Origin: Emticicia sp. CRIBPO
GTDB taxonomy: Bacteria > Bacteroidota > Bacteroidia > Cytophagales > Spirosomataceae
Direction of reading: 5' to 3'
Assembly (NCBI RefSeq): GCF_009905725.1
Contig: NZ_JAAAKV010000017.1
Location: 1 to 64,000 of the forward strand
Length of the DNA: 64,000 nt
The notes beneath the pieces were generated by a model. The model was not told the DNA's origin, searched no databases, and saw only the letters and a list, made by a program, of their open reading frames with translations. Numbering within the stretch: the stretch's first letter is position 1; every line of letters begins with the position of its first letter. This document shows, piece after piece, positions 23,479 to 40,728 of this stretch. The translations under genes and the position numbers were made by a program.

Positions 23479-23510
23479 TTTGCAATTGAAAAAATACAAA
23501 ACTACTTTTG
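23479..23510 (+). promoter_or_regulatory. Bacteroidota promoter of the SusCD/DoxX/sulfite-dehydrogenase operon
   Basis: TTTG at 23479-23482 and TACTTTTG at 23503-23510 are separated by exactly 20 bases, matching the consensus TTTG-N19/20-TAnnTTTG. Transcription should begin near 23517, about 277 bases before the SusC start codon. Confidence 0.75.
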
Positions 23511-23793: not shown

Positions 23794-26700
23794 ATGAAAA
23801 AAAAATTCTTACTACAATTATGGGTCAGCATTTTATTGATTCCGTTAGGAATAGCAGCACAAAGCCCTGAAGCCACCATTAATGCTACGCTTTCAGGCAT
23901 CGTTTCGGATGAAAAAACAAGAGAACCCCTGATCGGGGCATCTATCCAGATCAAAGGCACAACCAACGGGGCCATCACCAATGCAGATGGAAAATTCTAC
24001 CTTAAGACAGGCCAGAAACTGCCTTTTACCCTGATAGTTAATTATATAGGATATGACACCAGAGAGGTTTTGGTAAACACCAATACCATAGAAATAAGGC
24101 TTCTGGCCAATGCCAAACAATTGAGCGAAATTGTGGTGGTGGGCTACGGAACCCAGGAAAGAAAAAACCTGATCGGGTCAGTTTCCAAAGTCGATCCTTC
24201 TGAAGTAAGTGCCATTCCCGTCGGGAGTTTTGATGCACAGCTACAGGGGAAAGTCTCAGGAGTGCAGATCTCCTCTCCTACCGGTGTGCCGGGCGAAACT
24301 GTCAATGTGAGGGTACGTGGAGCGACTTCAATCAACGCCGACAATGACCCTTTGTATGTGGTTGACGGCGTTTTTGTCAACAGCAACAGCTTACAGACCA
24401 TCAGCACAGGAGGAAAGTCCTCCTCACCGATCACCGACATCAATCCTTCTGACATCCAGAGTATTGAAGTACTGAAAGATGCTGAAGCCACAGCCTTGTA
24501 CGGTTCAAGGGGAGCTAACGGCGTGATCCTGATCACCACCAAAAGAGGTAATTTTGACCAGGCCCCGAAAGTCAATTTCAACGCCAGTTACGGTCAGGCC
24601 AAAGCCGTCAAACTATGGGAGCTTACCACCGGCCCGGAACACGCCCAGCTGGTGAACGAATGGTGGATCAATACGGGTAAAGATACCCCGTCTCTGAACA
24701 GAACCGAAGCCAACCGTCCCTTCAGACCGGTTTCGGAAGGCGGAAGAGGATTGCCGGAAGAACAGCAGACTTACGACCGTCTGGGCGAAGCTTTCAGAAC
24801 CGCTACTTTGCAGAACTACGACCTTTCGGTTACCGGAGGTACCAAAACCACGAAATACTACATCGGTGGCGGATACAACGACCAGGAGGCGATCCTCAAA
24901 CCGATTACCTTCAACAGGGCCAGTTTCAAGGTCAACCTTGACCAGAAAATCAATGAGAGGGTTCAGGTGGGTGTCAGCAACACCTTTACCAGAACCTACC
25001 GTAACCAGGCCAGGGCCGGGGATGGTCCGCAGGGAGGTCTGCTTCAGGCAGCTCTGCACACCCCTACTTACCTGTCGCCTTACAATGAACAAGGGGTACT
25101 GGTCGGAAGAGCGGGTTTTGACAACCTCACTTTATTGCTTGAAAACTATGACGTTAATTCTACCAGTTTAAGATACATCGGAAACCTTTATGCCGAAGCC
25201 GAACTATTGTCTAATCTGAAACTCCGCACAAGCTGGGGGGTAGATTACAACAATTACAACGAGTCGGAATACTGGAATACTTTCCTTTTACTCGGAGCCC
25301 AGGGTGGTCTGGCGACTTCGTCCATCAGCCAGTTCTCTTCTCTTCTGAATGAACAAACTTTGACATACCGCAAGAAATTCGGCACCAAACATTCATTTGG
25401 TCTGATCGTGGGTAATACCCTACAGAGCGATGTGCTGACGAGGACCTATGCGGAAGGCCGTGGTTTTGCCAACAACTCCTTCAAAATCATTTCTTCTGCC
25501 GCTACCACCACCAGTACACAAAGCTGGAGCAAAAGCAACCTGGCGTCCTTTTTTGCCAAAGCAGACTATGTTTTCAACAGCAAATACCTGGTTGATTTCA
25601 GCCTGAGGGCCGACGGATCGTCGAGATTCGGAGCTGACAGGAAATGGGGTTATTTCCCTGCCGTAGGTGGTGCCTGGAGAATCAAGCAGGAAGACTTCCT
25701 TAAGGATGTTAAATTCATTTCCGACCTGAAACTGAGGGCAAGCTATGGTATCGTGGGTAACCAGAATGGCATCGGGAACTTTGCAGCTCAGGGTCTGTGG
25801 ACCGGCGGTGCACCGTATCAGGGTAACCCGGGTATTGCTCCGCAGCAACTGGCCAACCCGGACTTAAGATGGGAAAAAACCAACCAGTTCAACATCGGTA
25901 TCGATGCGGCCGTGCTGGAAGGAAAACTTTCTTTCGAACTTAATTACTACAATAAATACACCCGCGACGGCCTTTTGCAGCTCGCTTTGCCGAGCACCAC
26001 CGGTTTTGCCAACTACTGGAGCAATGCCGCGGAAATCAGCAACAAAGGATTTGAGCTGAACATCAACTCTGTCAACTACGATCGTGGCGGACTGACCTGG
26101 ACAACGAGCTTCAACATTGCCCGTAACGTCAACAACATTGAAAAACTGGAAAACCCCCTCCGTTACGGAAGCCGCGAGCTTATCCTGCAGCAACAGGGAA
26201 CACCGTTATACTCGTTCTGGGTTTATAAACAACTTTCTGTTGATCCGCAAACCGGCAACGTCGTCTATGAAGATGTGAACAAAGACGGACAGATCACGGT
26301 TGCTGACCGTCAGATTGTGGGCAGTATCTGGCCGAAATTCTTTGGCGGGCTTACCAACAATGTATCTTACAAAAACTTTGAGTTGTCTGCTTTCCTGTCA
26401 TTCCAGTATGGCAACAAGATCTATAACCACAACAAGTTCTTCGGCGAAGGTGGTGGTGCGAGAGACGCGGCGAGGATCATCTTTGCGAGTAACAATGCCA
26501 GATGGCAAAAGCCGGGCGACATCACCGATGTGCCAAGACCTGACGGTGTGAACGTGAACAATTACCGTGACGGCGGCAGCCGCTGGCTGGAAGACGGTTC
26601 ATTCCTGAGACTTCGCTCCCTGAACCTGTCTTATAACCTTCCGAAAGAAATCGCCAGAAAACTCAGGGCAGACGGCCTGAAAGTGTATGTCAACGGAACC

Positions 26701-26838
26701 AACCTTTTTCTTCTGACCAAATACACCGGTCTTGATCCGGAGTCAAGTGCCAGCAGTGAGCAAAATGCACAGGGGATAGACTTAGGAACGCCTCCGCAGC
26801 CCCGCAGCTACCAGGTGGGTATCAGTGTGACGCTTTAA
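23794..26838 (+). CDS. SusC-type TonB-dependent outer-membrane transporter 1
   Basis: A 1014-residue SusC/RagA protein: signal peptide (1-22), carboxypeptidase-like domain (about 30-115, ATLSGIVSDEKTREPLIGASI and TNADGKFYL), TonB box region ending EIVVVGYGTQ, plug (DPLYVVDGVFV, SIEVLKDAEATALYGSRGANGVILITTKRG) and a C-terminal beta-barrel ending RSYQVGISVTL. With its SusD partner it imports large ligands across the outer membrane using TonB energy. It begins a long + strand gene series and is followed 24 bases later by SusD. No glycan enzymes lie nearby, so the ligand need not be a sugar. Confidence 0.96.
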   Translation: MKKKFLLQLWVSILLIPLGIAAQSPEATINATLSGIVSDEKTREPLIGASIQIKGTTNGAITNADGKFYLKTGQKLPFTLIVNYIGYDTREVLVNTNTIEIRLLANAKQLSEIVVVGYGTQERKNLIGSVSKVDPSEVSAIPVGSFDAQLQGKVSGVQISSPTGVPGETVNVRVRGATSINADNDPLYVVDGVFVNSNSLQTISTGGKSSSPITDINPSDIQSIEVLKDAEATALYGSRGANGVILITTKRGNFDQAPKVNFNASYGQAKAVKLWELTTGPEHAQLVNEWWINTGKDTPSLNRTEANRPFRPVSEGGRGLPEEQQTYDRLGEAFRTATLQNYDLSVTGGTKTTKYYIGGGYNDQEAILKPITFNRASFKVNLDQKINERVQVGVSNTFTRTYRNQARAGDGPQGGLLQAALHTPTYLSPYNEQGVLVGRAGFDNLTLLLENYDVNSTSLRYIGNLYAEAELLSNLKLRTSWGVDYNNYNESEYWNTFLLLGAQGGLATSSISQFSSLLNEQTLTYRKKFGTKHSFGLIVGNTLQSDVLTRTYAEGRGFANNSFKIISSAATTTSTQSWSKSNLASFFAKADYVFNSKYLVDFSLRADGSSRFGADRKWGYFPAVGGAWRIKQEDFLKDVKFISDLKLRASYGIVGNQNGIGNFAAQGLWTGGAPYQGNPGIAPQQLANPDLRWEKTNQFNIGIDAAVLEGKLSFELNYYNKYTRDGLLQLALPSTTGFANYWSNAAEISNKGFELNINSVNYDRGGLTWTTSFNIARNVNNIEKLENPLRYGSRELILQQQGTPLYSFWVYKQLSVDPQTGNVVYEDVNKDGQITVADRQIVGSIWPKFFGGLTNNVSYKNFELSAFLSFQYGNKIYNHNKFFGEGGGARDAARIIFASNNARWQKPGDITDVPRPDGVNVNNYRDGGSRWLEDGSFLRLRSLNLSYNLPKEIARKLRADGLKVYVNGTNLFLLTKYTGLDPESSASSEQNAQGIDLGTPPQPRSYQVGISVTL

Positions 26839-26862
26839 TCTCAGATCTTAAATAATCGAAAA

Positions 26863-28200
26863 ATGAAAAAATTTAAATACCTTTTATACATCGTATTGCT
26901 CACCTCAGCCACCGGCTGTGACAAATACCTGGACGTTCAACCGCTTGAGTCTATTTCAGATACGCAGACAATCTTTGATAAATCTTCTGCCGAAACAGCC
27001 ATCAGAGGGGTTTACTCAGCGTTGAGCAACAGCAACTATTACGGAACTACTTTCCAGTCTATCGGCTATCTGTCAGGCGACAATATTCAATGGACAGGTT
27101 CACAATCGCAGGTACAGGAATTCATCAATAAAAAGGTGAATGCTGAAAACGCCACCATTTCCGGAGCCTGGACCGCCATTTACAGGACCATCAACCGGGC
27201 GAACAACGTGATCGCCAAAGTACCGGGCGTAACAGATCCGTTACTGACCGAAGCCCTGAAAAACCAGATTGTAGGGGAAGCATATTTTGTCCGTGCCCTG
27301 GCTTACTTTGACCTGGCCCGTACCTGGGGCGGTGTGCCGCTTATCGTTACACCGACTTCTAATCCTACCCAGAACAGGGGAATAGCCAGAAGTACCACCG
27401 CCCAGACCTACGCCCAGGTGTTGAAAGACCTGGAGACGGCCGAACCTCTGCTGCCTTCCACGACCGACCGTTTCAGAGCTACCCGCAAGACGGTGTGGGC
27501 CTTACGTTCCCGTTATCACCTTTACCAGAAGGAATGGGCCAAAGCGGAAGAGTATGCAGCCAAACTATTGTCTGACAATACTTTCCAGGCCGTAAAACCT
27601 TACAGTGCGTTCTTCGCCAATGATGCCCGCGGCACCCAGGAATCTGTATTTGAGATCTTCTACTCAGCCAATGAAACCAACACCCACAGAGGACAATGGC
27701 AGCCACAAACCAACGGAGGCACCCGTCAGTGGGCACCGAATGACGCCCTGGTGGCCTTGCTGAATGATGCCACCAAAGGCGGCAACCGCAGCACCCTGGT
27801 AGCCAAAGACAACCAGAACCGCTGGTATGGCAACCTGTATTACCGTACTCCGGCTACTGACCCTACTTATGTGATCCGTATCGCTGAGCTTTACCTGATC
27901 AGGGCTGAGGTACGTGCACAGCAGGATAAACTGGCCGACGCCCTTACAGACCTGAATGTGATCCGCAGCCGTGCCGGCATCAGCCCGAGTACTGCTGCCT
28001 CAAAAGATGCGGTCCTCCTGGATATTGAAAATGAAAGAAGGCTTGAATTTGCCCTGGAACCACACCGTTGGTACGACATCGTCAGGACAGGCCGTGCGGC
28101 ACAGGTGTTCAACGTAACTGACCCGAACAGGCTGGTGCTCCCTATTCCTTCAGGTGAATTACTGATCGACAAGGCATTGGTTCAAAACCCCGGATATTAA
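26863..28200 (+). CDS. SusD/RagB-type outer-membrane lipoprotein 1
   Basis: A 445-residue lipoprotein (signal ending SATGC) with the SusD fold. An N-terminal YLDVQPLESISDTQTIF-like start leads to a TPR helix region (FVRALAYFDLARTWGGVPLI), and the C-terminal motif reads IRIAELYLIRAEVRAQ with ERRLEFALEPHRWYDIVRTG. SusD lids the SusC barrel and binds ligand at the cell surface. It pairs with the SusC immediately upstream and lies 19 bases before the first DoxX-like gene. Confidence 0.96.
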   Translation: MKKFKYLLYIVLLTSATGCDKYLDVQPLESISDTQTIFDKSSAETAIRGVYSALSNSNYYGTTFQSIGYLSGDNIQWTGSQSQVQEFINKKVNAENATISGAWTAIYRTINRANNVIAKVPGVTDPLLTEALKNQIVGEAYFVRALAYFDLARTWGGVPLIVTPTSNPTQNRGIARSTTAQTYAQVLKDLETAEPLLPSTTDRFRATRKTVWALRSRYHLYQKEWAKAEEYAAKLLSDNTFQAVKPYSAFFANDARGTQESVFEIFYSANETNTHRGQWQPQTNGGTRQWAPNDALVALLNDATKGGNRSTLVAKDNQNRWYGNLYYRTPATDPTYVIRIAELYLIRAEVRAQQDKLADALTDLNVIRSRAGISPSTAASKDAVLLDIENERRLEFALEPHRWYDIVRTGRAAQVFNVTDPNRLVLPIPSGELLIDKALVQNPGY

Positions 28201-28219
28201 ACCTTAACCATTTATAACT

Positions 28220-29557
28220 ATGGCTCAAACTATTCAACGCGATCCTGAAGCAGTGTGGAGTAATACCGAAAAAAACCTTTTCAGGTTCTTCGGTATTTAC
28301 TTCCTCCTGCAGGTGTTACCCCTGGACCTGAGGTTCTTCAAGCACCTTTTCAGTTTCAACTGGTTCGACTACCAGGGTATTTTTTACCTGGCCCGCTATT
28401 CTCCGTCATTTACCGGGGATGACAGTTTCATTAACTGGCTGATCATCGCCGTTCTGGCTGCGGCAGGAACTTTGTTGTGGGATAAAATCTACAAAAAAGA
28501 GGTCAATTACGACCAGCTTAATTACTGGGTCAGGGTGCTGGTGAGGTACCGTCTGGCGATCGGGGTGATCGCCTACGGTTTTCTGAAGTTCTTCCCTATC
28601 CAGGCCCCGGTACCTTCTCTGAGCAATCTCAACACGGATTACGGAGACTTTACCTCATGGAAACTGTTTTCGCTGGGTTTAGGCGTGGTGCCTGGCTATC
28701 AGTCGTTTTTAGGATTGGTCGAAATTGCCGGGGGCTTGCTTTTACTGAACCGTAAAACGACCACCATAGGTACACTCATCATTCTTCCGTTTACCGGTAA
28801 TGTGGCTTTTTCAAACATTGCGTATGAAGGTGGTGAATATGTGTATGCTTTTTACCTGATCTCGCTGGCTCTTTATCTTTTTGCTTTTGACGGCATCCGT
28901 CTTTTCAAACTGGTTTCCCTGGAAATCCCGACAGCCCCGAATCGCTTCAAGCCTGTTTTTGCAGGAGAATGGGCCAAATACCGCCTGGCTTTGAAATCGG
29001 TATTCATTTTATTCTTTGTCATTTTTTATGGTTTCAAAACCTACGCAGGGTATAAAAAGGGAGGATACCAGTTTCCGGCAGAAAAAGGGCTGGCCGGGAC
29101 AGAGGGTTTGTACAATGTCAGTGAGTTCAAATGGAACAATCAGTCCATTCCGTACTCAAAAACCGATTCTGTCAGATGGCAGAACGTGGTTTTCGAAAAG
29201 TGGAACACATTGAGTATCCAGTCTAACAAGCCGGTCGTTCCCGAAAATCTGCCGACCGAGGAACTGTTCAAGGATGACTCATCCCGGATTTATGAACTGG
29301 CCGGTTCTCAGGGGCGTCATTATTATTCATACCGGGTCGACAGCCTTAATTCAGGTCTTTTGCTTCAGAACAGGAACAAAAACCATGCGGGTGACCAGCT
29401 GACGCTTTCGTTCAACAGGCTGAATGACTCTACCATTGTGCTTCAGGGTGTGACAGCCGGAAAAGACTCGGTTTACGCCGTATTGAATAAAATCAACAAA
29501 AAATACCTGATCTACGAAGCCAAGAAATCGGGCCGCAGAGGGGGTTTAACCTTGTAA
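28220..29557 (+). CDS. DoxX-like membrane protein with periplasmic C-terminal domain 1
   Basis: A 445-residue protein. Residues about 15-235 hold about six membrane helices with a DoxX-like pattern (VRYRLAIGVIAYGFLKFFPIQ, YQSFLGLVEIAGGLLLLNRKTTTIGTL). One more helix lies near 265-285, then a beta-rich region (about 300-445) with YNVSEFKWNNQSIPY and later VTAGKDSVYAVLNKINKKYLIYE, reminiscent of a lipocalin-like barrel. DoxX/DoxD proteins include subunits of thiosulfate:quinone oxidoreductase and other redox-linked membrane proteins, but the membrane part alone does not establish activity. It is paralogous to the next gene. Confidence 0.7.
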   Translation: MAQTIQRDPEAVWSNTEKNLFRFFGIYFLLQVLPLDLRFFKHLFSFNWFDYQGIFYLARYSPSFTGDDSFINWLIIAVLAAAGTLLWDKIYKKEVNYDQLNYWVRVLVRYRLAIGVIAYGFLKFFPIQAPVPSLSNLNTDYGDFTSWKLFSLGLGVVPGYQSFLGLVEIAGGLLLLNRKTTTIGTLIILPFTGNVAFSNIAYEGGEYVYAFYLISLALYLFAFDGIRLFKLVSLEIPTAPNRFKPVFAGEWAKYRLALKSVFILFFVIFYGFKTYAGYKKGGYQFPAEKGLAGTEGLYNVSEFKWNNQSIPYSKTDSVRWQNVVFEKWNTLSIQSNKPVVPENLPTEELFKDDSSRIYELAGSQGRHYYSYRVDSLNSGLLLQNRNKNHAGDQLTLSFNRLNDSTIVLQGVTAGKDSVYAVLNKINKKYLIYEAKKSGRRGGLTL

Positions 29558-29581
29558 TTCTTAATCAAAAATTCAATCATT

Positions 29582-31252
29582 ATGTCAGATTTAAACTTAA
29601 AAGCAGAACGTGAGGATTTAGGTGCGGAATTACCTGAAACCTCCTCAGAAAACGACCCGAAGGTAGTCGGAGCCGGTCCGTGGCCGGAGTGGCAGAAGAT
29701 TCTCTTCAGGATTGCCTTCGTCTTTTTTATCGCCATGACGCTGCCCAATAATCCGGACTGGTACACCGATATTTTCGCATTCGACTGGCTGCATCTGCAT
29801 TACAGGGACTTGTACGATATCGCCCGCTTTGGTTCGGGACTTGATTTCTTCGGCAACCGCTTCTTCGGCAGTCCGCTGAATGGTTATGCCATATGGGTGA
29901 TCACGTTCGTGTTTGCCATTGCAGTAGGGCTGATCTGGACGGCCGTTGCCTATTTTATCAAAAAAGAACGCAGGGAATATAACCTTCTGTATTACTGGCT
30001 CAAAGTGATCGTCCGTTACAGGGCCGGGATCGGGATCATCGGTTTTGGTTTTACGAAACTCACCCCTACCCAGCTGCCATACCCGTCGTGGGGGATCCTG
30101 AACACTGATTTCGGAGACCTGACCTTACAGAAAATCTACTGGCTTTCTATCGGGATCGTGCCGTGGTATGAAGTATTTACGGGGGTGGTTGAGGTAGCCG
30201 CAGGTGCTTTACTGTTTTTCAGAGCCACCACTTTCTGGGGCTCGGTGTTGTTGTTCGGAGCACTGGCAGATATCGTTTATGTCAACTTTGCCTATGACGG
30301 CGGAGTGCATGTTTACAGCTCTTATTTTGTCCTGTTCTCGGCTTTCTTACTGATTGATTACGTACCTAAAATTTACAGTCTGCTGATCAAAGAACGCTTC
30401 ACGATTCCTTTTACTTATTACCCGGTTTTTGACAAAGCATGGCAAAGAATCACAAGAATCACTTTAAAAACAGTGACCATTGTGCTTTTCCTTCCGGTTT
30501 TTCTTTACCTGGCGATCATCAACTTTCTGTATGACCCTTATAAACAACCGGCCCAGAAAGGCATAAAAGCCCTGCGGGGTAATTATGAAGTGAGCGAATT
30601 CAGGATCAATAACCAGGTCATCCCTTATTCGCCGCTGGACACCGTCAGATGGCAGCAGGCTACGTTTGAAAAATGGACTACGCTGACTTTTAAAACCAAC
30701 AAGCCGGTGGAACTGGACCTTTCCAACGGTGGCGGGGCTCCTATGCGTGATATCGGGCGGACGTTTGAACTCACCGGGGTAGCGGGCGGACAAAGGGTGT
30801 TTTATTATGAAGCCGATACGGTTAACCAGGTGCTTTATCTCCAGGATAAAAATCGCGGAGCCAGGAACCAGGAAAACCGGGAGTTCCAGGGTAACCGTAA
30901 CCAGGCAGCCAACGGTGGCGGCCGTGGTGAAAGAAACCGTCCGGAAGGCCAGAAAAAGGACGAAAAGCAGGATAACTGGATTCCGAAAGAAGCCCTGGCG
31001 ATCATTGGACCTGAAGACCCGAAAATTGATCCGATTGCCCGCTCAGGACGCCGTACCAAAGGCATTGAGTCTGAAAGCCGTCCTTCAAAACGCAACAGGA
31101 TGATCCTGAAATATACCGTCATTGATGGCGGTAACAGGGTCCTTCTGTCAGGCATTAATGAAAACAAGGATTCCATTAATGTCGTCCTCGACAGATATAC
31201 CAAAAAATATGCCCTTTCCAGAAGCACACTGGAAGCGGGTAAGTACGAATAA
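29582..31252 (+). CDS. DoxX-like membrane protein with periplasmic C-terminal domain 2
   Basis: A 556-residue paralogue of the preceding protein, with the same layout: an acidic N-terminal extension, helices with YWLKVIVRYRAGIGIIGFGFTKL and YEVFTGVVEVAAGALLFFRATTFWG, then a C-terminal domain (YEVSEFRINNQVIPYSPLDTVRW; SGINENKDSINVVLDRYTKKYAL). It differs by an insertion rich in Arg, Asn, Gln and Gly (about 420-500). The separate pair of C-terminal domains on one operon suggests a two-subunit membrane complex. The gene lies 25 bases after its paralogue. Function is unproven. Confidence 0.7.
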   Translation: MSDLNLKAEREDLGAELPETSSENDPKVVGAGPWPEWQKILFRIAFVFFIAMTLPNNPDWYTDIFAFDWLHLHYRDLYDIARFGSGLDFFGNRFFGSPLNGYAIWVITFVFAIAVGLIWTAVAYFIKKERREYNLLYYWLKVIVRYRAGIGIIGFGFTKLTPTQLPYPSWGILNTDFGDLTLQKIYWLSIGIVPWYEVFTGVVEVAAGALLFFRATTFWGSVLLFGALADIVYVNFAYDGGVHVYSSYFVLFSAFLLIDYVPKIYSLLIKERFTIPFTYYPVFDKAWQRITRITLKTVTIVLFLPVFLYLAIINFLYDPYKQPAQKGIKALRGNYEVSEFRINNQVIPYSPLDTVRWQQATFEKWTTLTFKTNKPVELDLSNGGGAPMRDIGRTFELTGVAGGQRVFYYEADTVNQVLYLQDKNRGARNQENREFQGNRNQAANGGGRGERNRPEGQKKDEKQDNWIPKEALAIIGPEDPKIDPIARSGRRTKGIESESRPSKRNRMILKYTVIDGGNRVLLSGINENKDSINVVLDRYTKKYALSRSTLEAGKYE

Positions 31253-31259
31253 AGAAACT

Positions 31260-31292
31260 GTTTACCCTTCTGTAAATGCCTGAAGGGTAAAC
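31260..31292 (+). other. Intercistronic hairpin before second SusC
   Basis: GTTTACCCTTC (31260-31270) pairs perfectly with GAAGGGTAAAC (31282-31292) around an 11-base loop. It lies between the second DoxX-like stop (31252) and the SusC gene. No T-run follows. It could stabilise or process the messenger, or partly terminate. Confidence 0.65.
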
Positions 31293-31333
31293 TTTACATG
31301 GATACAATTAAACCAAAGAAAACAAAGACCATT

Positions 31334-34300
31334 ATGAAAAAAAGAAATTTACTGTTGCTGATTCTCCTTTTGCTGAATCTCCCCCTGCCGGGATTTTCGC
31401 AGTCCAATGCTGTCTCCGGCAGTGTCAAAGACAAGGAATCCGGTGAAGCCCTGCCCGGCGTTTCCGTTATCGTGAAAGGGACCAATATCGGAACGACCAC
31501 CGATTCACAGGGCAATTTTAAACTCAATTCTGCTGAAAATGCCACTTTAATCTTCTCTTTTGTCGGGTATTTACCGGTTGAAAAAAAAATAAGCAATAAA
31601 TCTATATTATCTATAGAGTTAATATCAGACGCGAAACAACTTTCCGAAGTCAGGGTGGTGGGTTATGGCACTCAGACCAAAGCTGAATTTACGGGTTCTG
31701 CGGTGCGGGTATCCGGAGATATCATCAAAGAACGGCCTATCCAGAGTTTCGACCAGGCTTTGTCAGGTCGTGCTGCCGGGGTGAATATCGCCCAGCCCAA
31801 CGGCGTACTGAACAACCCGCCGGTGATCAGGATCAGGGGGGTCAACTCCATTTCACTGAGTTCTTATCCGCTGGTGGTGGTAGACGGGATTCCGATCAAC
31901 ACCGGAAACGTATCAACCAGCACAGCTGTGCCGAACAACCCGCTTGGGGACATCAATCCGGCCGACATTGAATCTATTGATGTACTGAAAGACGCGGCTT
32001 CGACCTCTATTTACGGCTCGAGGGCCGCAGCGGGGGTTTTGCTCATCACGACCAAAAGGGGACAATCGGGTAAGCCGAGAATCAACTATGAGGCCTGGAC
32101 GGGCGTTTCTGAAGTGGTGCGTTTACCGGAATTGCTGAACGCCGAACAGTACATCGCCATTAAAAATGAAGCGGTGCTGAACGCCAAAATCCTCGGAGGC
32201 AATGTCAACAACGACAAAGTAGCCTCTGCTTTGTTTTTCCCTAATTTCGATGCCCGGAATAAGCCGATCGATACCCGCTGGTATGATTACATTTACCAGA
32301 CCGGAACTTCCCAGAACCATAACCTGAGTGTATCTGGCGGAACAGCCGCTACCAATTATTATTTCTCGGCCAACTTCACCAAACAAAACGGTTTCCTGGT
32401 TTCCAATGAATTTAACCGTAAATCGGTCAGGTTTAACATTGACCAGGAAGTGAACAAATGGCTGAAACTGAAAGGAAGCGTTTCTTACAACTCGAGCTTT
32501 AACCAGTCGCCTTATGCCGGTTCTTTACCGAACTCCAATTTCTTCCTGGTAGGTGCGGCCCGTCTGGCTACTGCCCTGTCGCCCAATGTCCCGGCCTTCA
32601 ATGCCGATGGATCTTACAATATCAATCCGGCCAGTTTAAATACGATCGGTATAGGCAACAACCAGGTGATCAGCAACTGGGGTAACCCGGTGGCCTTACT
32701 GAGAGAAAACCGCTATACTTCACAAAACAGCCGTATCATCGGTAGTTTTGCAGCGGTTATCAACCTGTATAAAAACCTTGATTTCACGTCTACTTATGCT
32801 GTAGACCGCCTGGATACCGACACTTACAGTTTTGACAGTGCCATCCAGGGCAACGGCTTCTCAAGCCGGGGTAATGCCACGAACATTGCCGCTCTGAGAG
32901 ACAACTGGAACTGGACCAATACTTTATCTTACAATACGATCATTAAAGACAAAAGCTCCGTTTCTGCTTTGGTGGGCTATGACTTTCAGAAGTTTGACTT
33001 TTCTTCATGGGGAGCTTCAAGAACCCAGGGAGCTGACGCTTTCTTCGAAAACTACCAGGGTAACTGGGGGGCTATTTCAGCGACCGGCAACGAAATCGGG
33101 GAAAGGTCGTTCCTGTCTTTCTTCTCGCGTCTGAGCTATGACTGGGACAAGAAATACTTCCTGACGCTCAACTTCAGAAGAGACGGTAACTCGGCCCTGG
33201 GTGCGGGTAAAAAATTCGGGAATTTTGGAGGGATATCCGGCGGATGGTCTCTGTCTGAGGAAGAATTCTATAAGACATCGGCTCTGTATCCAGTGTTGAA
33301 TAACGTGAAGCTGCGTGCCAGCTGGGGTCGTGTAGGCAATGGTAACCTGAGCGATGCCTTCAGTTCTCTGGAACTTTACAGCGGTTCATTGTATGGCAGT
33401 GTGCCCACCTGGTCTATTTCGCAGGCAGGAAACCCGAACCTGGGCTGGGAAACCAGTAATCAGACCAACATCGGGGCTGACCTGGGACTGCTCAACGACA
33501 GGATACAGCTGGAGTTTACGTATTTTGACAACAACGTGGACGGTCTGATCCTGAGTGCCCCGCAGGCAGTTTCAAAAGGTATCCCGGGTAATGCCATTTT
33601 AGGAAACGTCGGTTCCATGTACAACAGGGGTATTGAATTAGGTATCAATGCGACCGTGCTCCGCAAAGGTGATTTCTCCTGGAAAACCTCTTTCAACATC
33701 ACCAGGCTTAATAACAAAGTCACTGCCCTGGCTGAGGGTAACACGGACATTATCGGCACCACCCACGTGGCTTACGAAACCACGAACATCACCCGTGTCG
33801 GCTATTCTGTAGGAAGTATCTACGGTGCTAAGACAGACGGTGTGAACCCGGACAACGGCCGCAGGATATTCATCAACGGACAAGGTAAGAAAGTGCAGTT
33901 CAGCCAGGTGGTAGCTCCCGGAGAAAGCCAGTGGACTTACCTCGACGGCACCAAAGCCCCGGCCATTACAGGATCGGATTATTACCTGATAGGAAATGCC
34001 CTGCCAACCTGGTATGGCGGATTTGCGAACAATTTCAAGTACCGGGATTTTGACCTGGGTGTCAACTTCACGTTCTCAGGCGGTAATGTGGTCATGAACG
34101 GGACAAGGGCCACCTTACTGGATCAGAGGGCTTACAATAATTCGACCGAAATCCTGAACCGCTGGCAAAAGCCGGGTGATATCACGGATATTCCACGCCT
34201 GGTTTATAATGACCAGCTTTCAAGCGGTTCATCGTTTCCGGTATCTACCAATGCCGAAAAAGGTGATTTCCTGAGACTTCAGAATGCCTCATTCGGATAT

Positions 34301-34507
34301 CAGTTGCCCAAGTCGCTGTTTACCAGGATCGGCATTGCTTCTGCGAGGGTCTATCTGCAGGGTTCCAACTTACTGTTGCTGACCAAATACACAGGTACTG
34401 ATCCTGAATCGTCTGTGAATGGTAATTCCAATACCACGCCGGGTGTGGAGAAAAACTCGGTGGGACAGGCAAGAACATTCACGCTGGGTCTCAACCTCGG
34501 TTTCTAA
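31334..34507 (+). CDS. SusC-type TonB-dependent outer-membrane transporter 2
   Basis: A 1057-residue SusC/RagA protein: signal peptide ending PGFSQ, carboxypeptidase-like domain (SGSVKDKESGEALPGVSVIVKG), TonB-box region (RVVGYGTQTKAEFTGS), plug (SYPLVVVDGIPI, SIDVLKDAASTSIYGSRAAAGVLLITTKRG) and a barrel ending ARTFTLGLNLGF. I took ATG 31334, which puts the signal peptide first, rather than 31298. It is a second complete uptake receptor in the same operon as the first. Its divergence from the first copy suggests a different ligand or a duplicated function. Confidence 0.95.
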   Translation: MKKRNLLLLILLLLNLPLPGFSQSNAVSGSVKDKESGEALPGVSVIVKGTNIGTTTDSQGNFKLNSAENATLIFSFVGYLPVEKKISNKSILSIELISDAKQLSEVRVVGYGTQTKAEFTGSAVRVSGDIIKERPIQSFDQALSGRAAGVNIAQPNGVLNNPPVIRIRGVNSISLSSYPLVVVDGIPINTGNVSTSTAVPNNPLGDINPADIESIDVLKDAASTSIYGSRAAAGVLLITTKRGQSGKPRINYEAWTGVSEVVRLPELLNAEQYIAIKNEAVLNAKILGGNVNNDKVASALFFPNFDARNKPIDTRWYDYIYQTGTSQNHNLSVSGGTAATNYYFSANFTKQNGFLVSNEFNRKSVRFNIDQEVNKWLKLKGSVSYNSSFNQSPYAGSLPNSNFFLVGAARLATALSPNVPAFNADGSYNINPASLNTIGIGNNQVISNWGNPVALLRENRYTSQNSRIIGSFAAVINLYKNLDFTSTYAVDRLDTDTYSFDSAIQGNGFSSRGNATNIAALRDNWNWTNTLSYNTIIKDKSSVSALVGYDFQKFDFSSWGASRTQGADAFFENYQGNWGAISATGNEIGERSFLSFFSRLSYDWDKKYFLTLNFRRDGNSALGAGKKFGNFGGISGGWSLSEEEFYKTSALYPVLNNVKLRASWGRVGNGNLSDAFSSLELYSGSLYGSVPTWSISQAGNPNLGWETSNQTNIGADLGLLNDRIQLEFTYFDNNVDGLILSAPQAVSKGIPGNAILGNVGSMYNRGIELGINATVLRKGDFSWKTSFNITRLNNKVTALAEGNTDIIGTTHVAYETTNITRVGYSVGSIYGAKTDGVNPDNGRRIFINGQGKKVQFSQVVAPGESQWTYLDGTKAPAITGSDYYLIGNALPTWYGGFANNFKYRDFDLGVNFTFSGGNVVMNGTRATLLDQRAYNNSTEILNRWQKPGDITDIPRLVYNDQLSSGSSFPVSTNAEKGDFLRLQNASFGYQLPKSLFTRIGIASARVYLQGSNLLLLTKYTGTDPESSVNGNSNTTPGVEKNSVGQARTFTLGLNLGF

Positions 34508-34548
34508 ACCATCCGTCCAAAGCTTCAAAAAATAAAACATCAAAGGAA

Positions 34549-36006
34549 ATGAAACGAACAATCAAACATAAATCGATTTTAAAGCTCAGCGGATTTCTGG
34601 GTCTTTTTCTTATTGGAACTACCGCCTGCAACGAAGCCAAATACCTGAACCCTACCCCGGAAACTTCCATCAGCGGAGCCAATGTAACGGCCAGTCCGGA
34701 AAGAATCCTGGGGCTTGTGAACGGGATATACAGGTCATTGAAAAACGGCAACTTTTATGGTGGCAATTACTACACCTACACCGAAGCCCGCGGAGAGGAA
34801 TTCATCAACCGGACCAGCAATACTTTCACGGCTTTTGAAGCGTGGAGCCAGACGTTAAATTCCGGATCGAACTTTGTCGCAGGTTTCTGGGCCGCAGGCT
34901 ATGCGACCATCAACAATGCCAACATCCTGATCAAAGGACTGACGGACAACCCGAATGTGGTAAGTCCGGCACTGACCAAACAGTACATAGCCGAAGCCAA
35001 GTTTGCCCGTGCTCTGAGTTATTTCAGCCTGGTGACCTTGTATGCACGCCCTTATAACGAAAATAAAGGTACTTCTCCCGGATTACCTTTGAGACTGCTG
35101 GCTGAAACCGGCACTGCCAACAACGCCCTGAAACGCAGTTCTGTAGCCGAAATTTATGCCCAGATCATCAAAGACCTGGATGAGGCTGAAGCCGACCTTC
35201 CGCTGAACCATGCGACTGCTTTGCTCAATACGACCAGGGCTCACCGCAATTCTGCGATTGCCCTGAAAACCAGGGTTTACCTGAACTCAGGCAACTACGC
35301 CAAGGTGATCGAAGAAGCGAAGAAGATTGTTTCAACCCAGGCTCCGTATGCAGCATCGACAGGGGTAAATCATAAACTGCAGAATATCATTGAAATATTC
35401 ACGACCAATTACACCAGCACAGAATCGATCCTGTCGGCCCCGATGACGGAGCTGGACAATGTAACGGGACAAACTTCTTTCCCTTATGTGTTCAACGCCA
35501 ATGCGGAATACAACCTGAACCCGGCGGGCATCTGGGGAGATACGGAATGGAAGAGTACCGACCTGAGGAGAACTTTCTCAAGAACAGCCTCTGGTGTACA
35601 GTTCCTGACCAAATACAACAAGCCGTCGCCGTTCCTTGACTATATGCCGATCATCAGGTACTCAGAAGTGTTGCTGAATTATGCTGAAGCTGCTGCCCGC
35701 ACGGGAGACCTGAGCAAATCTGCAGACCTGCTGAAAGCCGTCAGAAACCGTTCGGATGCATCTTATGTATTCCCGGATAAAGATGTGTCGACGCAAACGG
35801 CTTTGGTCAATACAATCCTGAAAGAAAGGAGAATCGAATTGCTTGGAGAAGGATTCAGGTCCAACGACCTGCTGCGTAACCTTCTGCCTTTACCGGCCAA
35901 ATCAAGCAACGCTTTGTCGGCTCCTGCGGTGAATCCTGCTGATCCGAATTACATTTTCCCTTTACCGAACACGGAAATCACAAGTAATAAATCATTGCTG
36001 GAATAA
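34549..36006 (+). CDS. SusD/RagB-type outer-membrane lipoprotein 2
   Basis: A 485-residue lipoprotein with a signal ending GTTAC. The SusD helices are recognisable in FARALSYFSLVTLYARPYNENKGTSPGLPL and in the C-terminal YSEVLLNYAEAAART plus KERRIELLGEGFRSNDLLRN. It is the partner of the SusC immediately upstream (41-base gap). After it, a short hairpin (36016-36040) leads to the TPR gene. Confidence 0.95.
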   Translation: MKRTIKHKSILKLSGFLGLFLIGTTACNEAKYLNPTPETSISGANVTASPERILGLVNGIYRSLKNGNFYGGNYYTYTEARGEEFINRTSNTFTAFEAWSQTLNSGSNFVAGFWAAGYATINNANILIKGLTDNPNVVSPALTKQYIAEAKFARALSYFSLVTLYARPYNENKGTSPGLPLRLLAETGTANNALKRSSVAEIYAQIIKDLDEAEADLPLNHATALLNTTRAHRNSAIALKTRVYLNSGNYAKVIEEAKKIVSTQAPYAASTGVNHKLQNIIEIFTTNYTSTESILSAPMTELDNVTGQTSFPYVFNANAEYNLNPAGIWGDTEWKSTDLRRTFSRTASGVQFLTKYNKPSPFLDYMPIIRYSEVLLNYAEAAARTGDLSKSADLLKAVRNRSDASYVFPDKDVSTQTALVNTILKERRIELLGEGFRSNDLLRNLLPLPAKSSNALSAPAVNPADPNYIFPLPNTEITSNKSLLE

Positions 36007-36015
36007 TCAAGTCCC

Positions 36016-36040
36016 GCCACAGGAGGAGACCTCCCGTGGC
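36016..36040 (+). other. Intercistronic hairpin after second SusD
   Basis: GCCAC-A-GGAGG (36016-36026) faces CCTCC-C-GTGGC (36030-36040) with a three-base loop and one mismatch. It sits between the SusD stop and the TPR gene, followed by an A/T-rich stretch rather than T-only, so a partial attenuator or processing site is more likely than full termination. Confidence 0.5.
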
Positions 36041-36058
36041 TTAAAAAATTTAAATCTG

Positions 36059-37795
36059 ATGAAAATCAAAACCCTTTTCATTTTACTGATTTCTTTCGGG
36101 CTGTATGCCCAGAGGGTAAGACAAGGCGAACACCAGCACAGTACAGAGCAAAACCAGGAGGCCCATGACGGTTTCAGTCACGACTCCCACAACCACCTGA
36201 ATCATATCCTGGATTACCGCAAGGAAACCCCTTATGTCCCGAACCTGCCTGCTCCGCAGATATTGAAAGGTATCGGTGAAGCCGACTTTAAGATCACCAC
36301 CCGGTCGGTAAAGACCCAGACCTTTTTTAACCAGGGCATAGCCTTGCTGCATGGTTTCTGGGACTTTGAAGCCTACAGGGCTTTTAAAGAAGCCATCAGG
36401 AATGATTCTGCAGCGATTATGCCTTATTACGGACTGTACAGTGCCATCGGGGCGATTGAAGGAGATGAGTTTAAAAGCGATCAGAAACTGGCCGTACGCA
36501 AGCTGAAACAACTCTGGAAAGACGCCACAGAAAGAGAAAAACTCTACGCCGATGCTATCCTGGCCAGGGACTCCGACGAAGAAGGCGGAAAAGCAGCCTA
36601 TCAGAAAAAACTGGAACTGATTGTCCACAAATACCCACAGGATGTAGACGCCAAATTGTTCCTGGCCTTAAGCAAAATGGGTGGCTATGATGCTAAAATG
36701 AACCCGAGAGACGGACAGATCTACGCAGAATACCTTTTGAAAGACCTCCTCCGCACCCACCCACAAAACGCCGGGGTGCATCACTACTGGATACACCTGA
36801 AAGAAAACTGCTGCCCGGAAGAAGCCCTGGAGAGTGCCGAATTCCTGCCTAAAATTGCGACAGGTTCAGGCCATCTGCTGCACATGCCCGGTCATGTGTA
36901 TTATAAGCTGGGTGAATACAAAAAGGCTTATGATGCGTTTTCAGCTGCTTTGAAGTCTGATTCTTTATATATGAAACAACAGCGTATTCCGGAAGTGGAT
37001 ACCTGGAACTACATTCATAACATCAATTATCTGCTGTCTAATTGTGCAGAGGACGGAAGATATGCCACAGCATTGTATTACGCTGAAAAGCTTCAGGACA
37101 TGGAAGCTTCGAAAGAACGTAAAAGGAAATATGAGGGCCGTTTCTTTTACCAGGGGGTGATTGCCCCGGCTAAAATGGAATTGTGTTTCGGATTTTATCA
37201 GAAAGCGGCCGACCGCCTGGCTGCGATCAAACTTGACAATGACAGCCTGTTTTCTGCCAAGGCCATCGCCTACAAAGAAGGTCTGTACTATTTCGCACTG
37301 GGCATGGAAGCCGTAAAAAACAACAAGATCAGTGAAGCCCGGCAATATGCCTACACCCTGGACGCTCTGCTCTGGAGAAACAGCAACCAGGAAAATGCCA
37401 AAGACGTGATTACCACCAAAAGGCTGAACGACCTCAATGTGGCCTCTCTTGAATTGCAGGGACTCATCAAAAGTGTTGAAAACAAGTATGATGAAGCCAT
37501 TAAGCTGCTCAAAAAAGCAAAACAGAAAGAAGATGACCTGGGTTATAGCGAGCCTCCGTCCTATGCCAGACCTGTACTGATCAGCCTGGGTGAAACACAT
37601 CTTAAAGCCGGCAAATTTGAGGAGGCGATTAAAGCTTATGAAGAACTGCTGAAAAGGCATCCCAACTCCGCCAATGCGGTCTGGGGGCTGTACAAAGTTT
37701 ACAAAGCCAAAGGCGACGGGCACAAAGCACATGCCCTCAAAGATCAGCTGAATACCATAACCCAATACGGTGACAAGTCGCTGTACCCACTATAA
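36059..37795 (+). CDS. Secreted TPR protein with histidine-rich N-terminus
   Basis: A 578-residue exported protein: signal peptide (MKIKTLFILLISFGLYAQ), a histidine-rich stretch (about residues 24-50, GEHQHSTEQNQEAHDGFSHD and HNHLNHILDYRK) and then helical repeats. The second part reads QTFFNQGIALLHGFWDFEAYRAFKEAI and later GSGHLLHMPGHVYYKLGEYKKAYDAF, matching a tetratricopeptide family of uncharacterised periplasmic proteins. The His-rich segment could bind Zn or Cu. It lies in the SusC/DoxX/sulfite-dehydrogenase operon, so it may be a scaffold or chaperone. I do not know its function. Confidence 0.72.
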   Translation: MKIKTLFILLISFGLYAQRVRQGEHQHSTEQNQEAHDGFSHDSHNHLNHILDYRKETPYVPNLPAPQILKGIGEADFKITTRSVKTQTFFNQGIALLHGFWDFEAYRAFKEAIRNDSAAIMPYYGLYSAIGAIEGDEFKSDQKLAVRKLKQLWKDATEREKLYADAILARDSDEEGGKAAYQKKLELIVHKYPQDVDAKLFLALSKMGGYDAKMNPRDGQIYAEYLLKDLLRTHPQNAGVHHYWIHLKENCCPEEALESAEFLPKIATGSGHLLHMPGHVYYKLGEYKKAYDAFSAALKSDSLYMKQQRIPEVDTWNYIHNINYLLSNCAEDGRYATALYYAEKLQDMEASKERKRKYEGRFFYQGVIAPAKMELCFGFYQKAADRLAAIKLDNDSLFSAKAIAYKEGLYYFALGMEAVKNNKISEARQYAYTLDALLWRNSNQENAKDVITTKRLNDLNVASLELQGLIKSVENKYDEAIKLLKKAKQKEDDLGYSEPPSYARPVLISLGETHLKAGKFEEAIKAYEELLKRHPNSANAVWGLYKVYKAKGDGHKAHALKDQLNTITQYGDKSLYPL

Positions 37796-37823
37796 AATAT
37801 TATTCATTTAAACATTTTACATC

Positions 37824-38693
37824 ATGAAAACCATCATGTCTTTATTAGTGATTTCTTTGTTTTTTACTGCTTTTACGGTTGATACGTATGAAGAGGAAAT
37901 CAAAAACTGGAAAAATCAGAGAATTGAAAGCCTGAAAAGCGAAGAAGGCTGGCTTAACCTGGCCGGGTTGTTCTGGCTTGAAGAGGGCGAAAACACCATT
38001 GGTGGCGACAAGAAAAACAGCATCGTTTTTCCTGCGGACCACAGTGACGCGTTTCTGGGCAAAGTCATCCTGAAAAACGGCAAGGTTAGTTTTGAATCTT
38101 CCAAAAGCTCTGAAGTGCTGAAAGGCGATGAAAAGGTAAGCCAGGCAGAGGTGTTTCCTTATACCGGTAAACCGGTGGTCCTGAAACACAAAACGCTGAG
38201 ATGGTTCATTATCCAGCGGGGCGACAAATACGCTATCCGCCTGAGAGATCTTGAAGGGCCTTATCTCAAAGAATTCAAAGGTATTGAAAGCTTTCCGCTG
38301 GATCAGAACTGGAAAGTGAAGGCGAAGTTTGTCCCTACCCCAGGCAAAAAACTGAACATCACGGACATCACCGGCCGTACTTACGAACAGGAGTCGCCGG
38401 GTAAACTGGAGTTCAAAATCGATGGCAAAGAATACAGCCTTGAAGCGGTAGGTTCCAAAGAACGCCTGCATTTTGTTTTCGGTGACCTGACCAATAAGCA
38501 TGACACTTATGGCGGCGGAAGGTTCCTGGACGCCAAAGGTCCTGATGCAGAAGGCTTCACCTATCTTGATTTTAATAAAGCTTATAACCCTCCGTGTGCG
38601 TTCACACCGTTTGCCACCTGCCCGCTTCCGACTAAGGAAAACAAGCTGGCAGTAGCGATCAGATCGGGCGAAAAATACCATGGGGATCACTGA
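37824..38693 (+). CDS. DUF1684 exported protein
   Basis: A 289-residue protein with a signal peptide (MKTIMSLLVISLFFTAFT). The C-terminal DUF1684 motifs are clear: NKHDTYGGGRFLDA, then YLDFNKAYNPPCAFTPFA with TCPLPTKENKLAVAI, including Cys258 and Cys266. DUF1684 proteins are exported and of unknown function. The cysteine pair and proximity to redox enzymes suggest a metal or redox role; that is speculation. It is followed 12 bases later by the cytochrome gene. Confidence 0.9.
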   Translation: MKTIMSLLVISLFFTAFTVDTYEEEIKNWKNQRIESLKSEEGWLNLAGLFWLEEGENTIGGDKKNSIVFPADHSDAFLGKVILKNGKVSFESSKSSEVLKGDEKVSQAEVFPYTGKPVVLKHKTLRWFIIQRGDKYAIRLRDLEGPYLKEFKGIESFPLDQNWKVKAKFVPTPGKKLNITDITGRTYEQESPGKLEFKIDGKEYSLEAVGSKERLHFVFGDLTNKHDTYGGGRFLDAKGPDAEGFTYLDFNKAYNPPCAFTPFATCPLPTKENKLAVAIRSGEKYHGDH

Positions 38694-38705
38694 TCAATTT
38701 TAAAA

Positions 38706-39299
38706 ATGAAGAATAAACTGATTCTCCCTTTGGCCGGCTTGTCCTGGTTGCTGATCTCGGCTTTTGCCCAATCAGACGCAGTGGTCATTTCTGATACAGT
38801 TATGGCTGAAAACTATGATACTATTCCCAAAAGCTTCGGACTGGGCAGGATAGCCACACAGGCTGAAATAGACAGTGTGGACATCGACGTCAGACCGGAC
38901 GGGAAAGGATTGCCGGCAGGCAACGGATTAGCAGCCAGAGGGAAACTCATCTTTGAAAACAAATGTGCGGCCTGCCATGGACAGGGAGGAATCGGCGGAC
39001 CAAACGGCTCGCTGGTGACAACCAAAGCCCAGGAAGGAAAAAGGAAAGAAAAAACGATCGGTAACTACTGGCCTTATGCCACCACGGTGTTTGATTACAT
39101 CCGCCGGGCGATGCCTTTTAATGCACCGGGCTCACTCAGCAATGAGGAAGTATATCACCTGACGGCCTACCTGCTGGCCGCCAATCAGATTATTGAAGAA
39201 AAAACGGTGATCAATGCCAGGACATTGCCAAAGGTGGTGATGCCTGCTCATCATTTATTTGTTCCCGATGACAGAAAAGGAGGACCAGAAATAAAATAA
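38706..39299 (+). CDS. SoxD/SorB-like periplasmic cytochrome c
   Basis: A 197-residue exported protein with one haem-c site CAACH (87-91) and a likely axial Met136 in RRAMPFNAPG. Before the haem, FGLGRIATQAEIDSVDIDVRPDGKGLPAG, and after it the NYWPYATTVFDYIRRAMPF motif, are characteristic of SoxD/SorB-type electron acceptors of sulfite or sulfane dehydrogenases. It ends 2 bases before the molybdoenzyme gene, so it is very likely its electron partner. Its signal is Sec-type. Confidence 0.9.
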   Translation: MKNKLILPLAGLSWLLISAFAQSDAVVISDTVMAENYDTIPKSFGLGRIATQAEIDSVDIDVRPDGKGLPAGNGLAARGKLIFENKCAACHGQGGIGGPNGSLVTTKAQEGKRKEKTIGNYWPYATTVFDYIRRAMPFNAPGSLSNEEVYHLTAYLLAANQIIEEKTVINARTLPKVVMPAHHLFVPDDRKGGPEIK

Positions 39300-39301
39300 G
39301 C

Positions 39302-40516
39302 ATGGACAAAATACTCGAAGTCATTCAGAAAATACCTCAGAAGATCTCAAGACGCGGCTTGCTGAGCGGAGCCGCAGCTGTTGTTATTGCCCAAACGGCC
39401 AAAGGACAGATCATACAGAAAGCTGTGGAAGATCCCACCAAAAGTTTCGGGACAGCCGCCGGAGAGGTCGGGACCAGGTCGCCTTTTGTGAAATCGGTCA
39501 AGAAGTTTTCGGACATCTCTTCCAGATCACCGCTGCAGGATTTTTACGGGATGATCACCCCCTCAGACCTTCATTTTGAGAGGCATCATGCGGGTGTTCC
39601 GGCCATTGACCCTGAAAAACATGAACTGCTGATCCATGGCCTGGTAGACAAACCCCTGATATTTAAGTTGTCCGACCTAAAGCGTTTCCCGTCGGTTTCC
39701 AGGATTGCTTTCCTCGAATGCTCCGGCAATTTCAGGTCGGGAAAAGATACACTGACTCCGCAGGAAATCTGCGGTCTGACGAGCCAGAGTGAATGGACAG
39801 GGGTTAAACTGTCCACTATTTTCAGGGAAGTGGGTGTCAAACCCAATGCCACCTGGTTTCTGGCAGAAGGCAGCGATGCAGCTGTGATGACCCGCAGCAT
39901 TCCCGTCAAAAAAGGATGGGATGATGCCATACTGGCTTATGCCCAGAACGGTGAACCGCTTCGCCCGGAACAGGGATATCCAGTCAGGTTGTTTCTGCCC
40001 GGCTGGGAAGGTAACACGAGCGTGAAGTGGCTGAGAAGAATAGAACTTTCAGACGAACCCTACATGACCCGCGAAGAGACCTCCAAGTATACTGAAGGCA
40101 TTAAAGACGGCAAAATAAGGATGTTCAGCTATGACATGGATGCCCGGTCAATCATCACTTATCCTTCTTATCCTCAGAGGGTTGAAAAAGGATGGATAGA
40201 GATCAAAGGACTGGCGTGGTCAGGAAGAGGCAAGGTAGTAAAAGTAGAAGTGAGCACAGACGCCGGTAAAAACTGGCACCTGGCCGAACTCCAGGACCCG
40301 GTGCTAGACAAAGCCCATGTGCGGTTCAGGCATCTGTGGCAATGGAAAGGTGAAGAAACGGAAATCCTGAGCAGGGTGAGTGACGAAACGGGTTATACCC
40401 AGCCTACCTTAAAGCAGCTGGTGGAAGCCCGTGGCAGTGAAATGGGCGGCTATCACATGAATCCCATTACAGCATGGCAGATCAGAAAAGACGGAGGGGT
40501 GTTTTTTAAGCCATGA
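39302..40516 (+). CDS. Tat-exported SoxC/SorA-type molybdenum sulfite dehydrogenase
   Basis: A 404-residue molybdopterin enzyme of the sulfite-oxidase family. The N-terminal SRRGLLSGAAAV (16-27) is a twin-arginine signal. The Mo-ligating cysteine is Cys140 in AFLECSGN, and the C-terminal dimer/Ig-like region (about 285-400) contains IEIKGLAWSGRGKVVKVEVSTD. SoxC/SorA enzymes oxidise sulfite, or sulfane sulfur on SoxY, and pass electrons to a cytochrome c; the SoxD/SorB-like cytochrome is directly upstream. The real substrate is unproven. It ends the operon and is followed by GC-rich repeats and a terminator. Confidence 0.93.
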   Translation: MDKILEVIQKIPQKISRRGLLSGAAAVVIAQTAKGQIIQKAVEDPTKSFGTAAGEVGTRSPFVKSVKKFSDISSRSPLQDFYGMITPSDLHFERHHAGVPAIDPEKHELLIHGLVDKPLIFKLSDLKRFPSVSRIAFLECSGNFRSGKDTLTPQEICGLTSQSEWTGVKLSTIFREVGVKPNATWFLAEGSDAAVMTRSIPVKKGWDDAILAYAQNGEPLRPEQGYPVRLFLPGWEGNTSVKWLRRIELSDEPYMTREETSKYTEGIKDGKIRMFSYDMDARSIITYPSYPQRVEKGWIEIKGLAWSGRGKVVKVEVSTDAGKNWHLAELQDPVLDKAHVRFRHLWQWKGEETEILSRVSDETGYTQPTLKQLVEARGSEMGGYHMNPITAWQIRKDGGVFFKP

Positions 40517-40697: not shown

Positions 40698-40728
40698 AAG
40701 CCGGACAGAAATGTCCGGCTTCATGGTT
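40698..40728 (+). terminator. Hairpin after the sulfite dehydrogenase gene
   Basis: AAGCCGGACA (40698-40707), loop GAAA, TGTCCGGCTT (40712-40721), then CATGG and seven T residues. A 10-bp perfect stem. It can end the upstream + strand operon; the spacer before the T-tract reduces confidence slightly. Confidence 0.65.

Follow-up and report, generated by a model that had tools for sequence, protein, structure and literature searches.

The first 64,000 nucleotides (nt) of contig NZ_JAAAKV010000017.1 of Emticicia sp. CRIBPO, referred to as the window in the following, encode a run of ten genes which combines two SusC-SusD outer membrane uptake pairs with two DoxX-like membrane proteins and a SoxC-like molybdoenzyme preceded by its cytochrome c. 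We regard this run, with some confidence, as a modular SusCD operon for sulfur scavenging, in which sulfite is oxidized in the periplasm. All ten genes point in one direction and are separated by gaps of 2-52 nt, which confirms the co-directional arrangement given in a preliminary description of this DNA. The features, all on the plus strand, are:

23479..23510, +, candidate Bacteroidota-type promoter TTTG-N20-TACTTTTG, a pattern match only, to a consensus which we take to be valid for this group
23664..23796, +, structured leader, in which an A-run and hairpin P1 (23674-23699, loop GC[GT]GNAAC) are followed by further, less certain helices as far as the start of SusC1
23794..26838, +, SusC1, TonB-linked outer membrane transporter (TIGR04056, 835.8 bits)
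26863..28200, +, SusD1, surface lipoprotein (PF14322, PF07980)
28220..29557, +, DoxX1, membrane protein of an unclassified family
29582..31252, +, DoxX2, helical membrane part and a barrel at residues ~327-542
31298..34507, +, SusC2 (TIGR04056, 790.1 bits)
34549..36006, +, SusD2 (PF07980, PF14322; best PDB chain 3l22_A, 169 bits)
36059..37795, +, exported TPR protein with a His-rich N-terminus (TPR models)
37824..38693, +, DUF1684 protein with an FHA-like part (PF07920, 144.8 bits)
38706..39299, +, mono-haem SoxD-like cytochrome c (best PDB chain 2xts_B, 112 bits)
39302..40516, +, SoxC-like molybdoenzyme with an SRRG (Tat-type) leader (TIGR04555, 481 bits; best PDB chain 2xts_A, 293 bits)
40698..40721, +, terminator-like hairpin 3' of soxC (consensus match)

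Of the features that define polysaccharide utilization loci, paired SusC and SusD are present in the operon; a search with Pfam-type models at E<=1e-3 revealed no carbohydrate-active enzyme families among the ten genes. The solved structure nearest to SusC1 is a SusC of unstated ligand, followed by RagA, which we take to be a peptide importer. DoxX1 and DoxX2 share 37% identity. The preliminary description pointed to the occurrence of DoxX-related proteins in thiosulfate:quinone oxidoreductase; such a role is not supported here, since neither a Pfam family (E<=0.1) nor an NCBIfam model (E<=0.01), DoxX and DoxD included, matched either protein. Fold searches with DoxX2 gave no firm family, and the absence of a match there is uninformative. 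The DUF1684 protein (AlphaFold pLDDT 88) is closest to 4fj4_B in Foldseek (E 7.9e-10), with weaker matches to FHA domains.

Genome contigs were searched with a DoxX2 alignment, which yielded 170 relatives, the best 80 of which were kept. A run is defined here as a series of adjoining plus-strand open reading frames (ORFs) with gaps of at most 400 nt, labelled by BLAST; DoxX2 was unreadable in one locus, so that counts refer to 79 runs, and some loci are cut by contig ends. DoxX1 lies beside DoxX2 in all 79 runs, SusC1 and SusD1 are present in 75, and the cytochrome together with SoxC in 66. A six-gene core SusC1-SusD1-DoxX1-DoxX2-cytochrome c-SoxC is found in 65 of the 79 runs, and its order is identical in all 65. 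The missing linkage of these genes in other genomes had been named beforehand as a finding that would speak against the operon; they are linked elsewhere. All ten genes occur in five runs, two from Runella and three from Spirosoma, the latter with an OAH sulfhydrylase and/or a cyanophycinase-like gene inserted, while one more Runella run is short of the TPR gene only. A FAD protein is encoded in 54 runs and an S51 cyanophycinase-like gene in 15. Genera with the locus include Emticicia, Runella, Spirosoma, Dyadobacter, Flavobacterium, Chitinophaga, Niastella, Mucilaginibacter, Pedobacter, Pontibacter, and Hymenobacter.

Linkage is also evident among 200 genomes of the family to which the window belongs, a set that overlaps with the genomes of the 80 loci: 65 carry DoxX2, 62 SoxC, and 59 both, and in 51 of these 59 the two genes are at most 10 kb apart. 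The genome lists were cut by hand at 310 bits or more for DoxX2, excluding a fragment in genome G199, and at 629 bits or more for SoxC, excluding a split SoxC of G072 (genomes, loci and contigs are given with our own handles G, L and C where needed).

Locus maps show three exchangeable units, namely SusC1-SusD1-DoxX1-DoxX2, SusC2-SusD2-TPR-DUF1684, and cytochrome c-SoxC. The ten-gene unit as originally proposed is thus borne out with respect to linkage, but resolves into three modules, and its RNA leader had escaped the first reading. In L084, L101, and L065, the cytochrome-SoxC pair follows SusCD, an exported amidohydrolase, an LLM monooxygenase, and an amino-acid permease. The model nearest to the LLM protein is alkanesulfonate monooxygenase TIGR03565 with 250 bits; as this is below the cut-off of 518, its substrate is a lead rather than a result. 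Two of the 79 runs include an OAH sulfhydrylase (649 bits), and 24 a PF03601 exporter-like gene, of which one member was tested against models and the others were labelled by BLAST. The exporter-like protein scores 175 bits with PF03601 and 84 bits with the putative sulfate exporter model TIGR00698, below its cut-off of 232.

On contig C1 of the CRIBPO genome, a FAD protein (67%) adjoins an exporter-like protein (69%), and the same cluster appears to encode a permease of the SulP type, a paralogue of the DUF1684 protein, a regulator of the Rrf2 type, an OAH sulfhydrylase, and an aminotransferase, all named by sequence and likeness to relatives and not by models. Genes that are joined to the operon in relatives are consequently grouped together on another contig here. 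Contig C37 encodes a further member of the sulfite oxidase superfamily (34% identity). Elements resembling tRNA-Met were observed inside such sulfur gene clusters, at L199 3909-3979 (the genome's own C1), L316 2808-2877, and L317 2800-2871, directly 5' of DUF1684 or Rrf2 genes in the latter two. ARAGORN assigned a CAT anticodon in L199 and L317, and the Rfam tRNA model gave only 47.6 bits (L199) and 37.7 bits (L316); they are either real tRNAs or tRNA mimics.

The SoxC-like enzyme exceeds the TIGR04555 cut-off (481 versus 420 bits) and does not reach the SorA and SorT models (128.6 of 600 and 122.1 of 570 bits). Its cytochrome carries one CXXCH motif, as do those of 68 of 68 relatives, while the Paracoccus partner SoxD is di-haem. 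A motif ECSGN[FY]R, conserved in 68 of 68 full-length SoxC proteins of the Bacteroidota loci, places an arginine at the position of R190 of chicken sulfite oxidase, the numbering and role of which we take as given; Paracoccus SoxC (2xts) has a glycine at the equivalent position. No SoxB was matched in this genome at E<=1e-3. Among the 200 family genomes none exceeded the SoxB cut-off, weaker matches being present in 164 (best 318 of 550 bits), and the 14 control genomes gave none over the cut-off either. SoxY was found in 0 of 200 in a search whose control was also empty. Because of the single haem, the lack of a SoxB match, and the retained sulfite-oxidase arginine, these sequence features make sulfite a likelier substrate than sulfane sulfur.

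Stand-alone pairs of soxC and a cytochrome c gene occur on plasmids of Paracoccus, Methylobacterium, Paraburkholderia, and Allomeiothermus (Proteobacteria, Deinococcota), with 47-55% identity to the window SoxC. On pPAN2 of Paracoccus pantotrophus (L187 8788-10828), soxC has its own cytochrome c, and no further sox gene is annotated around it. Identity to the window SoxC amounts to 55% for this soxC and to 42% for that of the Paracoccus ferrooxidans sox cluster.

The covarying leader before SusC1 is new here. It lies about 90 nt 5' of the gene and consists of an A-run and, 3' of it, a hairpin whose loop GC[GT]GNAAC is conserved. Of 25 leaders found, 19 were aligned (alignment A4), while those of L111, L115, L128, L135, L140, and L174 were excluded by eye. 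Changes on both sides were observed at eight of ten pairs, and the covariation score of 0.666 compares with 0.229 in shuffled alignments (reached in 0 of 500) and at most 0.172 in slid ones, whereas two of five measures were not above the shuffles (both-sided changes 318/500, further pair types 214/500). The window leader scores 49.2 bits with the covariance model and folds with a z of -2.7; seven leaders fold better than shuffles, with z between -2.1 and -4.3. The RNAalifold consensus of 11 long leaders retained only P1 and four invariant pairs. Eleven short leaders reveal a second helix with three pair types at one position, for which one of five measures fails (further types, 418/500), and in these a U-run is available for pairing with the A-run, the A-U pairs being without compensation. 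Rfam gave no match to the window leader at gathering score and four at E<=5, all far below gathering; near-matches on two leaders were likewise far below.

Three other identities for the leader were considered. A DNA palindrome operator is unlikely, as the stems vary with compensation. Antisense RNAs of the DonS type are considered less likely: a terminator shape is present on the minus strand, yet minus-strand TAnnTTTG boxes were seen in only two of 20 leaders scanned, against six of 20 with the promoter pattern upstream on the plus strand. A general SusC leader is ruled out in this genome, where the element stands at two of 50 SusC genes examined, out of 54 SusC-like places listed. The two strong covariance-model sites are the window and a SusC-SusD-cyanophycinase-like operon on C3 (L208 853-6287). 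Weak matches of 25-29 bits 5' of some other SusC genes in relatives, e.g., L231, L234, L235, and L238 (27-29 bits), may point to a broader SusC leader family.

In 12 chosen relatives, 17 leader sites of at least 36 bits were found; the next gene is SusC-like in 16 as determined by script, and the 17th site lies 5' of a SusC2 which is divided into two ORFs. L337 (G027, Emticicia) contains a leader-bearing SusC2-SusD2 module (module B) which may be a broken copy, since SusC2 and TPR are each split into two ORFs. Across the 200 family genomes, 62 carry the leader at 74 places (E<=1e-5), 45 of which are at most 20 kb from DoxX2 or SoxC, and leaders in relatives also precede split halves of the operon. 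Among the 29 off-core places, ten belong to SusCD operons with sulfatases (by BLAST; Pfam for L309, L325, L326, and L328), five to large TonB-receptor-type genes with an exporter, DUF1684 or Rrf2 (the receptor being Pfam-confirmed in L316), and three to similarly large TonB-receptor-type genes that are followed by a truncated gene or one of 518 residues, with an amidase in one case (L320). The remainder comprises the C3 operon of this genome, six places cut by contig or stretch ends, and four unclear ones that score no more than 41 bits. Forty SusC loci of this genome that lack the leader served as a control; two of them contain a sulfatase and none has core-type genes.

In Spirosoma terrae, a SAM riboswitch (RF00162; 64 bits, gathering 44) is located at L118 16687-16784, 246 nt 5' of a SusC2-SusD2 pair downstream of the core. 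To our knowledge, a SusC-SusD pair is an unusual target for this riboswitch. Taken together, the off-core leader cargo, the leaderless control, and the SAM riboswitch make a link to sulfur the best reading. It is conceivable, and we propose it tentatively, that the leader represents a cis-regulatory RNA of a new, sulfur-responsive class, a riboswitch or attenuator made of the hairpin with its conserved loop and a second helix, with the pairing of A-run and U-run that closes it as possible switch 5' of the SusC start. In part of the family it would define a sulfur regulon of TonB/SusCD operons, comprising this operon and its halves, the SusCD-sulfatase operons, and the receptor-exporter operons, and would have the position that in one relative is occupied by a SAM riboswitch.

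Conserved gene order, family memberships, a shared leader, and the sulfur context, all computed here, suggest the following model for the operon. SusC1-SusD1, along with SusC2-SusD2 as a second exchangeable module, would carry a sulfur-containing organic ligand across the outer membrane, probably an organosulfonate or an amide or peptide conjugate of one. Sulfite would be set free from it and oxidized to sulfate in the periplasm by the SoxC-like molybdoenzyme and its mono-haem cytochrome, with electrons passing to the respiratory chain. The companions, i.e., the PF03601 sulfate-exporter-like protein, the OAH sulfhydrylase, and the Rrf2 regulator, may handle the products by disposal or re-use of sulfate, and the structured leader could tie the operon to other sulfur operons in part of the family, placing it under the control of sulfur supply. 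OAH sulfhydrylase and SAM riboswitch favour assimilation as the purpose. Import of a sulfur ligand with periplasmic oxidation of its sulfur had already been suggested in the preliminary description; the sulfur link gains support from context, leader and riboswitch, while the oxidation of sulfane sulfur has become less likely (no SoxB; SoxY searched without a positive control).

Several observations weigh against sulfur scavenging. SoxC is absent from 13 of the 79 runs. In two of these it lies nearby, separated by another ORF, and in a third some 32 kb away; a fourth is on a contig of 3 kb. A sulfite-releasing enzyme was not found in this genome, where the LLM query matched nothing in a search that had no positive control, and the nearest structures to SusC1, the SusC of unstated ligand and RagA, do not point to a sulfur ligand. 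Only 26 of the 80 loci have a leader of at least 43 bits, 18 of them being seeds of the model, and in Dyadobacter none of 13 loci does, though all 13 have SoxC. Clear sulfur-type cargo follows at 15 of the 29 off-core places, and the genes at the other 14 are not clearly sulfur genes. Fisher's test of 10/10 against 2/40 sulfatase loci gives p 6e-9, which is optimistic, the contrast being weaker because the sulfatase operons are mutually related and were compared with loci of just one other genome. The SAM riboswitch is above gathering in one of 29 sources searched. Finally, the oxidation of scavenged sulfite fits energy gain or detoxification as well.

This last purpose is the core of an alternative in which SoxCD takes electrons from sulfite freed on sulfonated or sulfated carbon sources, in a lithoheterotrophic or detoxifying manner, and SusCD serves carbon uptake. 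A SoxD-like cytochrome with SoxC in 66 of 79 runs, the leader shared with SusCD-sulfatase operons, and an exporter-like gene that would clear sulfate are consistent with it. We nevertheless consider it unlikely, as the ten genes are free of carbohydrate enzymes, and the OAH sulfhydrylase and aminotransferase of the companion cluster, together with the SAM riboswitch of one relative, point to assimilation.

Even less probable is a true sulfane dehydrogenase, i.e., SoxCD acting on sulfane sulfur that is bound to a protein or peptide, where the DoxX proteins would feed into the quinone pool. The absence of SoxB over cut-off (from the 14 control genomes as well) and of SoxY (control empty), the sulfite-oxidase arginine, and one haem instead of two argue against it, while Paracoccus SoxCD as nearest solved pair and the TIGR04555 score above cut-off speak in its favour. 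The operon could also be a RagAB-like locus for peptide or amide uptake with an incidental sulfur link, the cyanophycinase-like, amidase, and amidohydrolase partners revealing the type of ligand. S51 cyanophycinase-like genes in 15 of 79 runs, the leader common to the SusC-SusD-cyanophycinase operon of this genome, an amidase after a leader-bearing receptor, and RagA among the SusC1 matches agree with such a function, which we judge improbable because the same set also comprises sulfatases, the LLM protein, the exporter-like gene, and a SAM riboswitch.

Beyond the operon, the minus strand of the window (44125-51705) encodes an apparent heavy-metal efflux set, read from the sequence as a P-type ATPase, a membrane fusion protein, and an RND pump. 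Over about 500 nt, repetitive ORFs with LQRKLTP on one and ERCKFTL on the opposite strand (43362-44111, +; 43578-44042, -) probably represent a DNA repeat, not a gene.

If sulfur scavenging holds true, SusCD machinery, known for glycans, would also serve a widespread sulfur acquisition in environmental Bacteroidota that is joined to sulfite oxidation, and soxC in genomes without a sox cluster would turn from a 'partial Sox' annotation into a testable pathway. Searches for a ligand or protein partner of the leader RNA could start from the operons compiled here. Among the matches listed from the open-licence PMC literature, no description of gene set or leader was found, which for the leader carries less weight since much of that listing matched 'susceptib'. 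Excerpts among them deal with a Flavobacterium haem operon that contains a DoxX gene (PMC9331221) and Starkeya sox genes (PMC3797975).

With respect to known systems, Paracoccus pantotrophus SoxCD (PDB 2xts) is the best PDB match for both subunits, is likewise encoded by an adjacent gene pair, and shares the active-site motif cysteine. The window system differs by its single haem, the lack of a SoxB match, the arginine in ECSGN[FY]R, the cytochrome gene before soxC, and the SusCD context. The stand-alone plasmid pairs resemble it in their small cytochrome c partner and in that no sox genes are annotated in the stretches read (the gene table being incomplete), but they have no SusCD/DoxX neighbours, and the arginine is present in none of five aligned. 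As in SusCD polysaccharide utilization loci, the operon is headed by SusC/SusD pairs, yet its cargo is sulfur oxidation instead of carbohydrate enzymes. Gene sets for taurine and sulfonate desulfonation are a further system for comparison. Sulfonate-monooxygenase-like, exporter-like, and sulfite dehydrogenase genes in operon variants are common ground with these, while TonB/SusCD import, the DoxX pair, and the RNA leader set the window operon apart. DonS-type antisense RNAs at Bacteroides susC genes, covered in excerpts of PMC7366714 and PMC11697453, share with the leader the location of an RNA element at a susC gene, and the window hairpin is terminator-shaped on the minus strand; in contrast, the minus-strand promoter pattern is seen in only 2/20 leaders, and further structure is predicted on the plus strand.

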